Positions 11,997-63,011 of a stretch of DNA of 64,000 nucleotides are shown piece by piece. Under the pieces are notes generated by a model. It was not told the origin of the DNA. It did not search any database and saw only the letters and a program-made list of their open reading frames with translations. Positions within the stretch are counted from its first letter, which is position 1; each line of letters begins with the position of its first letter. The stretch lies in assembly GCF_900108955.1 (NCBI RefSeq), contig NZ_FNYA01000001.1, forward strand, positions 1 through 64,000. Reading direction: 5' to 3'. A program made the translations under genes and the position numbers. This DNA is from Flavobacterium terrigena (GTDB lineage Bacteria > Bacteroidota > Bacteroidia > Flavobacteriales > Flavobacteriaceae).

Positions 11997-12389
11997 TTAA
12001 ACCGAACCAATCACGTGTTTTAAATCGGAAACTAAACTTTCCCACAATAATTTTGATTCAGGTAATTCATCTTCCTCCGAAAAGTCTACAACAATTAAAG
12101 AAACGTCATTTGTAATTTCATCAACTTGAATTTTTAATTCAAAGAAATACTCAGTTTCTTTATTATTTTCATCAAGCCATTTAAATTTTACTTTTTCTCC
12201 AGATTTTTTTGAAGCTAATTTCGCATTTTCTTCAGAATCGTCCCAAATAAAAGTATAAAATTCACCTCTTGAATTTACGTTATCCGCAAACCATTCAGAC
12301 AAACCAGACGGCGTTAAAATATATTGATATAATAATTGAGGCGAAGAATGTATGGGGAATTCTAGTTCGTACTTGATTTTTTGTTTCAT
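11997..12389 (-). CDS. START-like (SRPBCC/AHSA1-type) domain protein
   Basis: This 130-residue single-domain protein reads MKQKIKYELEFPIHSSPQLLYQYILTPSGLSEWFADNV, the typical opening of START/SRPBCC helix-grip domains. Conserved features are the LSEWFAD and FIWDDSEE stretches. I recall this as a conserved Bacteroidota protein of unknown role, possibly binding a hydrophobic ligand. Its 5' leader carries one of three copies of a structured RNA element ending 24 bases before the ATG. A TATTTTG-like -7 lies farther upstream. Confidence 0.85.
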   Translation of the reverse strand: MKQKIKYELEFPIHSSPQLLYQYILTPSGLSEWFADNVNSRGEFYTFIWDDSEENAKLASKKSGEKVKFKWLDENNKETEYFFELKIQVDEITNDVSLIVVDFSEEDELPESKLLWESLVSDLKHVIGSV

Positions 12390-12413
12390 GTGTTTAATTT
12401 TGATTTTTTAGTT

Positions 12414-12480
12414 GTGACTTATGGTATTGCATTTTTGTTTTGGGAATTTGCTTTACAAACTTTTTAATTTTGGCAACCTA
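12414..12480 (-). ncRNA. Structured 5'-leader element, copy C (before the START-like gene)
   Basis: Read on the minus strand, GTTGC (12477-12473) pairs with GCAAT (12430-12426) as the outer stem. GTTTG (12460-12456) pairs with CAAAT (12450-12446) as the inner hairpin, with loop TAAAG. TCCCA follows the hairpin and ACCATAAGTCAC (12425-12414) is the 3' tail. The same architecture occurs at 20088-20154 and 62056-62121 on the plus strand. Compared with those copies, the C-G pair inside the outer stem is replaced by T-A, a compensatory change. The element ends 24 bases before the start codon. Confidence 0.7.
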
Positions 12481-12590
12481 AATCTTTTTTATAAATTTTT
12501 CAGCAAAATATAAAAAATATTGATACCACAACTATATTTTACTGGTTTTTTTTGCACCAATTTTTTAATTGAATTTTTTATAAATATTTT

Positions 12591-19803: not shown

Positions 19804-20087
19804 CTTTTTTTATCAAATTTAGTTAATATTCTTTCAATCATATACGTTTTAACTTTACTTTTAGATTTGTGTATAAATAATCTTTGCCACGAATTCACGA
19901 TTTTTTTTTCTTTTTTTTACTGTGTAATTTTAATTCGAATTAATTATCGACGTTGTCGATACAAATTTTGTTTGTCAAAATTTTTAATTCGATAATTCGT
20001 GGCAAAAATTAAATTATTTAACTTTCATTTGTGTTTCAAACATTTTAATATTCACTATTTCTTTGTTTCTTTGTACAAATTGATGTT
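19804..20087. other. Long AT-rich intergenic region with an inverted repeat
   Basis: No gene is seen. TTTGCCACGAATT (19883-19895) is an exact inverted match to AATTCGTGGCAAA (19994-20006). Inside lie TATCGAC-GTT-GTCGATA and AATTTTG-TTTGT-CAAAATT palindromes. The outer word resembles CGTGGCAAA near 8992 and looks like a family of dispersed intergenic repeats. The region ends at the leader element before the lolD-type gene. Confidence 0.7.
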
Positions 20088-20154
20088 ATGAAATCGCAAC
20101 ATAAACTTGTTTGTGTGAACAAACACCTTTAAAATAATGCGATACCATACGACC
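20088..20154 (+). ncRNA. Structured 5'-leader element, copy A (before the lolD-type gene)
   Basis: ATCGCA (20093-20098) pairs with TGCGAT (20138-20143) as the outer stem. GTTTG (20109-20113) and CAAAC (20120-20124) form the inner hairpin with loop TGTGAA. ACC follows the hairpin and ACCATACGACC (20144-20154) is the 3' tail. The ATG of the downstream gene is 25 bases further on. Copies C and B share all conserved positions and show compensatory changes in the outer stem. I do not recognise a characterised riboswitch class in it. Confidence 0.75.
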
Positions 20155-20179
20155 TTTAAAAATCAATGAAAATTTACAG

Positions 20180-20848
20180 ATGATTAGAGCAACGAATATA
20201 AATAAACATTATGGCGATTTACAGGTTTTAAAAAACGTAAGTCTGCATATAAATAAAGGTGAAATTGTATCCATAGTTGGCGCTTCTGGTGCTGGAAAAA
20301 CTACGCTATTACAAATTTTAGGAACCTTAGATTTATTGGATAAAAAAGATAATGTTTCGAGTTCATTAACAATCAATGATACTTCGATAATTAATTTGAA
20401 AGATAAAGAATTGTCGAAATTTAGAAATTTGAATTTAGGATTCATCTTTCAGTTTCATCAATTATTACCTGAATTTACAGCTTTAGAAAATGTTTGTATT
20501 CCAGCATTTATTGCGAACAAACCTAAAAAAGAAGTCGAGATTGAAGCTAAAAAACTATTGGATTATTTAGGATTATCACACAGAATCAATCACAAACCAA
20601 GCGAACTTTCCGGTGGAGAACAACAACGTGTTGCGGTGGCAAGAGCTTTAATTAATAAGCCTGCCGTTATCTTTGCTGATGAACCTTCAGGAAATTTAGA
20701 TCATACAACTGCCGAAAATTTACACCAATTGTTCTTTAAATTGCGTGACGAATTTGGACAAACTTTCGTAATTGTCACACACAATGAAGAATTGGCAAAT
20801 ATGGCTGATAGAAAATTAGTGATGATTGATGGAGTTTTACAAAATTAG
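20180..20848 (+). CDS. lolD: ABC transporter ATP-binding protein, LolD-type
   Basis: This 222-residue ABC ATPase has Walker A GASGAGKT (34-41), Q-loop [16 protein letters not shown], signature LSGGEQQ (143-149), Walker [12 protein letters not shown] (Asp167-Glu168) and the switch His in VTHNEEL. The Q-loop and ALENV sequence place it in the MacB/LolD group, which powers lipoprotein release or efflux with a membrane partner. No partner permease is adjacent, which is common for lolD in Bacteroidota. The symbol is by similarity. Its leader carries the structured element. Confidence 0.88.
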
Positions 20849-20947
20849 AAGCAGACGAATCGTTTTTCAATTCACTTTTTGTCCCGCTTTCCGCACTACA
20901 TGGTAGTTTGCTGCAATCGGGGCTAATAAACACAAATCTATTTTCAG
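20849..20947. repeat. Intergenic repeat of the CCCGCTTTCCGC...GCAATCGGGG type
   Basis: GTCCCGC and GCAATCGGGGC flank CTTTCCGC and CTACATGGTAG words over about 50 bases. I recall very similar strings between genes in many Flavobacterium genomes. The ends can pair weakly (CCCG with CGGG). No function is evident. Confidence 0.5.
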
Positions 20948-61979: not shown

Positions 61980-62055
61980 AAACTAAAAATTCTATTATTA
62001 AGTGTCAGTCTGAGAATAGTCGAAGACTTTTTATAAACAATAAAATTTACATAAT

Positions 62056-62121
62056 ATGAAATCGCTAAAAATAATAGTTTGTGTAAACAAACACCCAATG
62101 AAAAGCGATACCATAATGACC
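62056..62121 (+). ncRNA. Structured 5'-leader element, copy B (before the ypfJ-type gene)
   Basis: ATCGCT (62061-62066) pairs with AGCGAT (62104-62109). Relative to copy A the closing pair A-T is now T-A, a compensatory change. GTTTG (62077-62081) pairs with CAAAC (62088-62092) around TGTAAA. ACCCA follows, and the tail is ACCATAATGACC (62110-62121). The ATG lies 26 bases downstream. A GTCAGTCTGAGAATAGTCGAAGAC word precedes it at about 62003. Confidence 0.75.
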
Positions 62122-62147
62122 ATTAATAAACAATAAATACTTACATT

Positions 62148-63011
62148 ATGAAATGGAGAGATTATAGAAAAAGTGATAACGTTGACGACAGACGTGGCAT
62201 GAGCGGAACTGGCAAAGCCGTTTTAGGCGGTGGTGGAATTATTGGAATTATTGCTTTTTTATTGATAACATTTGGTGGCGAACAAGGACAACAAATTGGA
62301 AACGTAATCAATCAAATGCAACCTGCCCAACAAGAAACAACTGTTGAAGGTGCAAAAGAACTAACACCCGAGCAAAAAGAAATTGGCGATTTTGCCAATG
62401 CTGTTTTCGCCATGACTGAAGATACTTGGACAAAAATATTTCAAGAAGAAAATTTAGGAGAATACCAAAAACCAGAAATGGTTTTATTCACTGGCGGAGT
62501 GGAAACAGCTTGTGGAAGTGCCACTTCGGCTTCTGGTCCATTTTATTGCCCTGGCGACAACAAAGTGTATATGGATTTGGACTTTTTTGAAGAACTAAAA
62601 ACACGTTTTGGAGCGAAAGGTGGCGATTTTGCTATTGCTTATGTAATTGCACACGAAGTAGGTCATCACGTACAAACGGTTTTAGGAACTTCTGCACAAG
62701 TACGAAAAAAACAACAAAGTTTAAGCGAAGAAGACGCTAATAAGTTATCTGTTTGTCAAGAATTACAAGCCGATTTCTATGCCGGTTTATGGGCAAAATA
62801 CAACCAAGACCGAATTGAAGTGGGCGATTTAGAAGAAGCTATTGATGCCGCTCACGCTGTTGGTGATGATGCCATTCAAACTAAAATGCAAGGTCACGTA
62901 CAACCAGAAAAATTTACACACGGAACTTCCGCACAACGTAAAAAATGGTTTACTCGAGGTTTCCAAACTGGCGATTTCAAACAACACAATACGTTCGCAG
63001 AAGAATTATAA
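62148..63011 (+). CDS. Neutral zinc metallopeptidase, YpfJ type
   Basis: The 287-residue protein matches the YpfJ/KPN_02809 neutral zinc metallopeptidase family. It starts MKWRDYRKSDNVDDRRGMSG, then a membrane helix (VLGGGGIIGIIAFLLITFGG). The zinc motif is HEVGHHVQ (His169, Glu170, His173), and SVCQELQADFYAGLWAKY holds a further ligand. LGTSAQVRKKQ and GNDAIQ-like stretches are conserved in the family. It is anchored in the inner membrane with a periplasmic domain. Physiological substrate unknown. Confidence 0.93.
   Translation: MKWRDYRKSDNVDDRRGMSGTGKAVLGGGGIIGIIAFLLITFGGEQGQQIGNVINQMQPAQQETTVEGAKELTPEQKEIGDFANAVFAMTEDTWTKIFQEENLGEYQKPEMVLFTGGVETACGSATSASGPFYCPGDNKVYMDLDFFEELKTRFGAKGGDFAIAYVIAHEVGHHVQTVLGTSAQVRKKQQSLSEEDANKLSVCQELQADFYAGLWAKYNQDRIEVGDLEEAIDAAHAVGDDAIQTKMQGHVQPEKFTHGTSAQRKKWFTRGFQTGDFKQHNTFAEEL

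Follow-up and report, generated by a model that had tools for sequence, protein, structure and literature searches.

A dispersed RNA-shaped element inserted at start codons in Flavobacterium and related genomes, with a predicted part in translation

Here we describe a structured element of ~100 nt that is scattered through Flavobacterium and related genomes and that comparisons of occupied and empty sites show, at the sequence level, to be an insertion placed exactly at an ATGAA start codon, with the start regenerated. Three leaders noted earlier in the 64-kb window (the whole stretch of DNA that was analysed), before a lolD-like, a ypfJ and a START-like gene, are true copies of it. The element, whose insertion and base pairing are documented below, is probably a mobile, start-codon-capping leader that is predicted to tune translation through competing AUG pairings.

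Copies, anatomy and base pairing

In its 5' half the unit runs from a left ATGAAA through the 5' strand of stem P2 (ATCGCC and variants) and ~11 nt with a TTAAC core to hairpin H (GTTTGC/GCAAAC and variants). In its 3' half, ACACC and an A-rich strand are followed by the P2 3' strand, two bases, X' (CATATATG and variants), GACC with an A/T-rich loop of ~20 nt, and X_right, the motifs being those of alignment A4 (91 copies). X_right is the 3' strand of a second hairpin, and its last bases are the gene's start codon, ATG.

The layout claimed for the three leaders in the initial annotation is present in all three, and the gene types named there agree with Pfam (ABC_tran, Zn_peptidase, START_2). 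Its core, P2 enclosing hairpin H, stands, but the second, start-codon hairpin and the insertion were overlooked. The region it delimited, 20088-20154, is a real element, and the ATG with which it opens (20088-20090) is part of the unit itself; its ACCATA tail is present but actually holds the start of X', the 5' strand of the hairpin that ends in the start codon. The near-constant distance from tail to start codon is also seen more widely: in 90 of 96 copies the first base of X' lies 34-35 nt upstream of the start codon. The features in the window are as follows.

20085-20164, + strand: element copy in the lolD-like leader (sequence)
20088-20090, + strand: left ATG of the lolD unit, the putative pre-insertion start codon position (sequence; analogy with empty sites)
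20093-20098, + strand: P2 5' strand of the lolD unit, ATCGCA (sequence; P2 covariation)
20109-20124, + strand: hairpin H of the lolD unit, GTTTGT-GTGA-ACAAAC (covariation, folding)
20138-20143, + strand: P2 3' strand of the lolD unit, TGCGAT (covariation, folding)
20146-20153, + strand: X' of the lolD unit, CATACGAC; the pair CATACGAC/TACAGATG is decayed (4 of 8 positions)
20180-20848, + strand: LolD-type ABC ATPase (name from the initial annotation), start codon 20180-20182 (Pfam ABC_tran)
62053-62131, + strand: element copy in the ypfJ leader (sequence)
62056-62058, + strand: left ATG of the ypfJ unit (sequence)
62061-62066, + strand: P2 5' strand of the ypfJ unit, ATCGCT (folding)
62077-62092, + strand: hairpin H of the ypfJ unit, GTTTGT-GTAA-ACAAAC (sequence, folding)
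62104-62109, + strand: P2 3' strand of the ypfJ unit, AGCGAT (folding)
62112-62118, + strand: X' of the ypfJ unit, CATAATG; pairs with the start-codon segment, or by its first bases with the left ATG
62144-62150, + strand: X_right, CATTATG, ending in the ypfJ start codon (X' pairing test, folding)
62148-63011, + strand: YpfJ-type neutral zinc metallopeptidase (Pfam Zn_peptidase, E 7.7e-98)
12403-12483, - strand: diverged copy before the START-like gene (R1 match)
12477-12473 and 12430-12426, - strand: P2 of the START copy, GTTGC/GCAAT, a compensated pair, kept
11997-12389, - strand: START-like domain protein (Pfam START_2)

Of these three copies only that of ypfJ has the start-codon hairpin (7 bp); the lolD and START copies are without it, the X'/start hairpin of the latter being decayed (5 of 8 positions).

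The expectation that further copies would be found with a covariance model was borne out within Flavobacterium and in other genera and families. In the own 3.17-Mb genome (18 contigs), searching for the hairpin as a pattern returned 10 matches, and its reversed form 1, nine of the ten being true copies by sequence and one (L006) false, and a P2-stem pattern gave 9 against 0 for its control. Model R1, a covariance model of ten copies, found 34 matches at E<=0.01 in this genome (best 150 candidates scored) and at least one match in at least 38 of 61 sampled Flavobacterium genomes, the own included; within the window its matches at E<=10, among the 150 genome candidates scored, are these three copies alone. 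Occurrence is patchy, from 0 to at least 74 matches per genome, counts that rest on the best 13-150 candidates scored in each. For the taxonomic searches with model R2 the best 13-16 candidates per genome were scored, so that the following are lower bounds: at least 16 of 249 genomes (15 of 235 genera) at the family level, at least 40 of 296 genomes (7 of 90 genera) at the order level, and at least 16 of 296 genomes (3 of 139 genera) at the phylum level, one of these genomes belonging to the same class but not to the order. Twenty loci from other families and from that outside-order genome keep the architecture by eye, some of them decayed. Searches of plasmids, phages and viral contigs, with one query or pattern each, returned no element. 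Copies also turned up in assemblies under the names Limnohabitans, Klebsiella pneumoniae and Chryseobacterium gleum (L237 and other JASGCW01 loci, L294, L260); bins with the first two names seem to be wrongly named or contaminated.

No known class had been recognised at the outset, and comparison with Rfam, including Flavo-1, leads to the same result: an Rfam scan of the window returned only RNase P and one tRNA, with no match on the element, and a scan of ten element loci (E<=5) gave nothing on the element beyond a few bases, as at L008, where a Bacteroid-trp match begins at the element's 3' edge. At that locus (1366-1567, - strand) the element lies immediately 5' of the Bacteroid-trp leader peptide (MKNRIQNTWWW...), and thus two leader RNAs stand in series. 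Flavo-1 (RF01705), which one survey lists as a probable RNA and not as cis-regulatory (PMC2864571), is like the element an RNA motif in Bacteroidetes, but it is excluded here, as none of the ten copies scanned has an RF01705 match. Separately, a sub-threshold Flavo-1 match (34.1 bits against a gathering score of 42) lies just 3' of the lolD-like gene, at 20876-20928 of the window (- strand; L002:2268-2320). No paper describing the element was found in the literature searched, most subscription literature and ISfinder lying outside its reach.

The anticipated covariation was found in a larger alignment, where P2, H and X'/X_right all covary against shuffles. For the X' test, 96 copies were parsed from 121 matches, after removal of 23 without a parsable X' (G016 copies among them), one without a right ATG and one duplicate. 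In 73 of the 96, X' and the segment that closes with the start ATG are complementary at all 8 positions, against a shuffle expectation of 21.2+-3.2 (10,000 shuffles, maximum 35). A4 comprises 91 of these 96, omitting L047, L126 and L130 (decayed hairpins) and L074 and L095 (near-duplicates), and therefore leans slightly towards pairing; in it, 95.9% of cells in the three helices are paired, compared with 88.5+-0.3 after shuffling, 11 pairs carry double changes (6.4 shuffled) and 130 cells are double-changed (32.7 shuffled). Sliding the partner strand by 1-3 columns abolishes pairing, with no shifted register coming close. Pairing of the left ATG with X', on the other hand, shows no covariation (1.848 vs 1.841 matches of 5, 92 copies), and the argument for the left ATG as a switch partner therefore comes from folding. 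A left TATG/CATA "outer stem" likewise shows no covariation, and is kept only as a putative alternative fold.

Some variants of ~115-150 nt have H replaced by a longer internal domain (L128, L133, L231 6485-6600, L200, L285, L302), of the CAATTG...TGAGATAAACACC or ATGAAATTCGCTGAACAC...CAGTGAAG types. Other palindromes, of CCTGCCTG...CAGGCAGG or TCCCGA...TCGGGA type and REP-like by eye, lie inside the X' of copies at L300, L290, L302 (4427-4554) and L316 (around 560-600), which makes X' look like a preferred landing site for a second family of repeats.

Insertion exactly at ATGAA start codons

Five comparisons of occupied with empty sites place the unit at an ATGAA start codon, with ATGAA on both sides: the old ATGAA remains upstream, and the ATG at the unit's right end is the start now used. 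Flank identity is 91-92% for the mnmA pair L040/L290, 95-100% for L101/L050 and 73-76% for L271/L264. In the own genome a unit sits precisely at the rodA ATG, where none of 18 sampled congeneric rodA loci is occupied (model R2 at E<=1 finds the own copy only among the 19 loci); TAT precedes the right ATG and AAA the left. At the near-identical loci L106 and L242, the former has one unit and the latter the same unit plus a second, different one next to the gene. Units are also stacked at L237, L276, L277 (three units), L279 (Kaistella chaponensis) and L302, with further stacks at L216, L211 and in G061 judged from half a unit seen or from neighbouring units; at L277, L279 and L302 decayed units lie upstream and an intact unit at the gene, by eye. 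Upstream of the left ATG the sequence is like that before native starts, with one exception: T at -1 is present in 0.77 of 167 left-ATG flanks and 0.36 of 313 native starts. Precise insertion at a start codon, together with a regenerated start that is usually held in a hairpin, therefore looks like mobile DNA doubling as a switch-like leader RNA.

These observations bear directly on the conserved cis-regulatory RNA (riboswitch or translation-control element) proposed in the initial annotation. What stands of it is a conserved, covarying leader before unrelated genes; insertion, dispersal and pairing with the start codon were missed. A rival reading takes the element for a vertically inherited riboswitch or protein-bound leader of the ordinary kind that serves a regulon. 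The conserved unpaired strands, the covarying helices, the fixed spacing to the start codon and the element's recurrence at the same genes across species (queA and M28; by eye also fabG-, fixH- and M1-like) speak for such an RNA, but relatives have empty sites, unlike copies occur at the same gene in related species (L024/L243, L203/L078) and the downstream genes are functionally incoherent, all of which makes it unlikely.

The element prefers real start codons, though not exclusively. Read from the right ATG, 67 of 77 pattern matches on genome contigs give an ORF that is 50 aa or longer or is cut off by the end of the locus, two others leading into a second unit and eight doing neither; among copies outside that set, 22 of 26 begin an ORF no shorter than 137 aa. 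AAA is the second codon in 70 of 75 copies. As background, 93 of 269 (35%) element-free ATGAAA sites are starts (sites at starts or between genes at 63 loci, elements masked), and 8 of 16 in the window.

In G016, with at least 74 matches (all candidates scored), nine units read lie off start codons, mostly in tandem within a larger intergenic repeat that also exists without element units (L121); at L121 and L123 this repeat, several hundred bases long and with or without tandem element copies, recurs in the stretches read. The X' partners there are segments like CAGCTT, GAGCTT, CAGATT or CATTAA, not a start codon, and the pairing is kept by eye, which argues that it has a role independent of the start codon. 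Two of three copies read in G285 and three of five in G061 lie off-gene, the other two in G061 being cut by contig ends.

In another reading the element is purely selfish DNA with no role in expression, its hairpins and X'/X pairing being recognised as single-stranded DNA during transposition, and start codons being tolerated as sites because the start is regenerated. In the IS200/IS605 family, guide and cleavage-site pairing occurs in single-stranded DNA during transposition. Like these and the REP/RAYT systems, the element is a small, non-autonomous hairpin unit, its left target sequence is repeated at its right end (ATGAA, five pairs) and an internal segment is complementary to the end sequence; unlike them, it has a pairing of ~8 nt and a strong link to start codons. 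The direct ATGAA repeats (possibly carried by the unit rather than arising by target duplication), the patchy copy number, the tandem units, the pairing kept in the non-coding arrays of G016 and the want of a regulon all fit the selfish reading. Against it, however, intergenic ATGAAA sites that are not starts are as common as starts, or twice as common, yet hold few copies, 9 of 16 same-gene pairs preserve the element better than their silent sites (see below), and none of three candidate mover families tracks the element. Y1 transposase (PF01797) occurs in 10 of 16 genomes with the element and in 11 of 15 without it, the six element-bearing genomes that lack the transposase being G012, G030, G011, G038 and, in a further departure from IS200/IS605 and REP/RAYT, G000 and G016, the two richest in matches; RVT_1 was found in 9 of 16 and 8 of 15. 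Neither is therefore retained as a candidate mover, and PF02371 (IS110-type), in 4 of 16 and 0 of 15, is too rare to argue from. At 30 Y1 loci the best R2 match had an E of 0.14 and none was convincing as a copy, and no halves of an autonomous copy were seen flanking a gene, 32 unmatched left ends being mostly copies missed by the strict right-end pattern, plus long-loop variants. A Y1-type mover may since have been lost, or may act from elsewhere. On balance we regard the selfish reading as doubtful.

As far as MITEAba12 (PMC6382973) exemplifies them, MITEs are like the element short, non-coding, multicopy, patchy and inserted. The element differs in its conserved internal RNA-like fold, in the regenerated start codon and in its ends, which are a direct ATGAA repeat with no terminal inverted repeat seen (A4 by eye and base composition at the ends). 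For every class tested, MITEs aside (where the ends were judged by eye), at least one defining feature is missing from the element.

Conservation, downstream genes and predicted effect on starts

In 9 of 16 same-gene pairs the elements share at least 90% identity, against 20-87% at four-fold sites; at L072/L074, for instance, 92 of 93 element positions are identical and 67 of 128 four-fold sites, and at L253/L292 91 of 92 and 56 of 96. This excess over silent sites suggests that the element is used in place. In the other seven pairs the elements are just 75-83% identical, as if replaced rather than constrained. In single cases judged by eye, L055 and L086 differ by compensated changes in H and P2, and L058 and L114, which have a common upstream flank, by a compensated change in the start hairpin. 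The 16 pairs were chosen from a longer listing and are not all independent, and in some same-gene pairs the flanks are likewise conserved.

Of the proteins behind copies in the own genome, 30 of 33 were scanned with Pfam and 26 gave a match: ABC_tran, Zn_peptidase, START_2, GldH, RodA, QueA, OsmC, ketoacyl synthase, HMGL-like, CoA_binding, shikimate dehydrogenase, FMN_red, LolA, HTTM, GcvH, TyrS, MnmA (tRNA_Me_trans), aminotransferase V, HPPK/dNK, E1_dh, AA permease, M28, rhodanese, LpxK and NamZ, with a glycosyltransferase that is bshA-like by eye. No regulon is evident among the 30. The shared envelope signal suggested earlier is accordingly unsupported, since the genes are unrelated (tyrS, mnmA, queA, gcvH, rodA, lpxK, PDH E1 and a trp leader among them). 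Nor is an envelope or secretion signal apparent in the proteins: hydrophobic N-termini amount to 62% against 56% with the second codon matched and 30% in the own genome, no clear enrichment in a comparison that merges several species and whose background includes genes near elements. Genes linked to one ligand, a trait of translational riboswitches, appeared neither in the own-genome Pfam assignments nor in the N-terminus comparison; of other riboswitch features, the core and the start hairpin covary and the left-ATG/X' alternative does not.

Folding predictions point to an effect on initiation. The right ATG is predicted to be less accessible than other starts, the mean unpaired value at 37 C being 0.23 over 165 leaders and 0.43 over 150 controls, and the start hairpins are weak, with a predicted mean of -3.4 kcal/mol at 37 C. 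The ypfJ leader is predicted to adopt two folds of ~-14 kcal/mol, one hiding the left ATG and one the real start; of the other four leaders folded, those of lolD and queA favour the left pairing, and those of rodA and L079 the start hairpin. From folds with X' on either AUG we infer a weak translation gate in which two AUGs compete for X'.

Weak, A/T-rich hairpins at start codons also raise the idea of an RNA thermometer that melts with temperature, and predicted start accessibility, 0.17 at 10 C, does reach 0.23 at 37 C. This rise is small, however, native starts climb alike (0.34 to 0.43), and the Pfam-scanned genes of the own genome include no heat- or cold-related set, so a thermometer is very unlikely. 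Still further from the data is a leader peptide, in which the left ATG would begin a small upstream reading frame (MKSPLTTSLRKQTPINKK...) that, once translated, opens the start hairpin. In 23 of 92 copies such a frame does stop 11 nt upstream of the real start, but stops occur at many other places and the spacing from left to right ATG falls in all three frames (42, 25 and 25 copies); with no conserved upstream reading frame among the 92, an attenuator of this kind is rejected, and the peptide reading as a whole is highly improbable.

Translational leaders such as riboswitch platforms and thermometers occlude the start codon in a hairpin, with alternative pairing possible. The element likewise holds the start codon in a hairpin and has a possible alternative pairing; unlike such leaders it has no regulon that we could see, and the unit is inserted and stackable.

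A candidate start-codon-capping leader and its implications

The preferred reading, that of a mobile leader capping start codons, combines these findings as follows. A unit of ~100 nt inserts exactly at an ATGAA start codon, and the ATG at its right end, which in most copies closes the 3' strand of a covarying hairpin with X', becomes the gene's start. In the mRNA, X' would then choose between the left, superseded AUG, which frees the real start, and the real start codon, which closes it, so that an inserted copy would become a weak, tunable translation gate. Once the gene depends on the new start codon, selection would keep the unit, while older, upstream units would decay. By analogy, the element may work like a non-autonomous insertion element that is a small hairpin transposon as DNA and a start-codon-occluding leader as RNA. 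More tentatively, it could represent a new kind of mobile element: an RNA-shaped unit of ~100 nt that homes to live translation start codons, carries a replacement AUG together with an anti-start (CAU...) strand and gates the genes it captures, its stacks recording successive captures. We hold this wider claim to be possible, at somewhat less than even chances.

Repeats just upstream of start codons have a precedent in the TAACTGA repeats of Beggiatoaceae, some Bacteroidetes and Cyanobacteria, for which a translational role was proposed (PMC4679880). As described there, these are like the element dispersed, and in one genome mostly near putative starts of unrelated genes, but they are heptamer direct repeats and not a structured unit holding the start codon.

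According to one report, mRNA structure and base identities tune initiation in F. johnsoniae (PMC6847099), and thus the effect of the element is directly testable. The findings also carry a warning, that a common leader structure need not mean a regulon. If the preferred reading is right, mobile elements would spread by start-codon capture without killing genes, including the usually essential tyrS and rodA, and dozens of unrelated genes would receive one RNA gate, which would offer a route to wholesale translational control in a lineage without Shine-Dalgarno starts.
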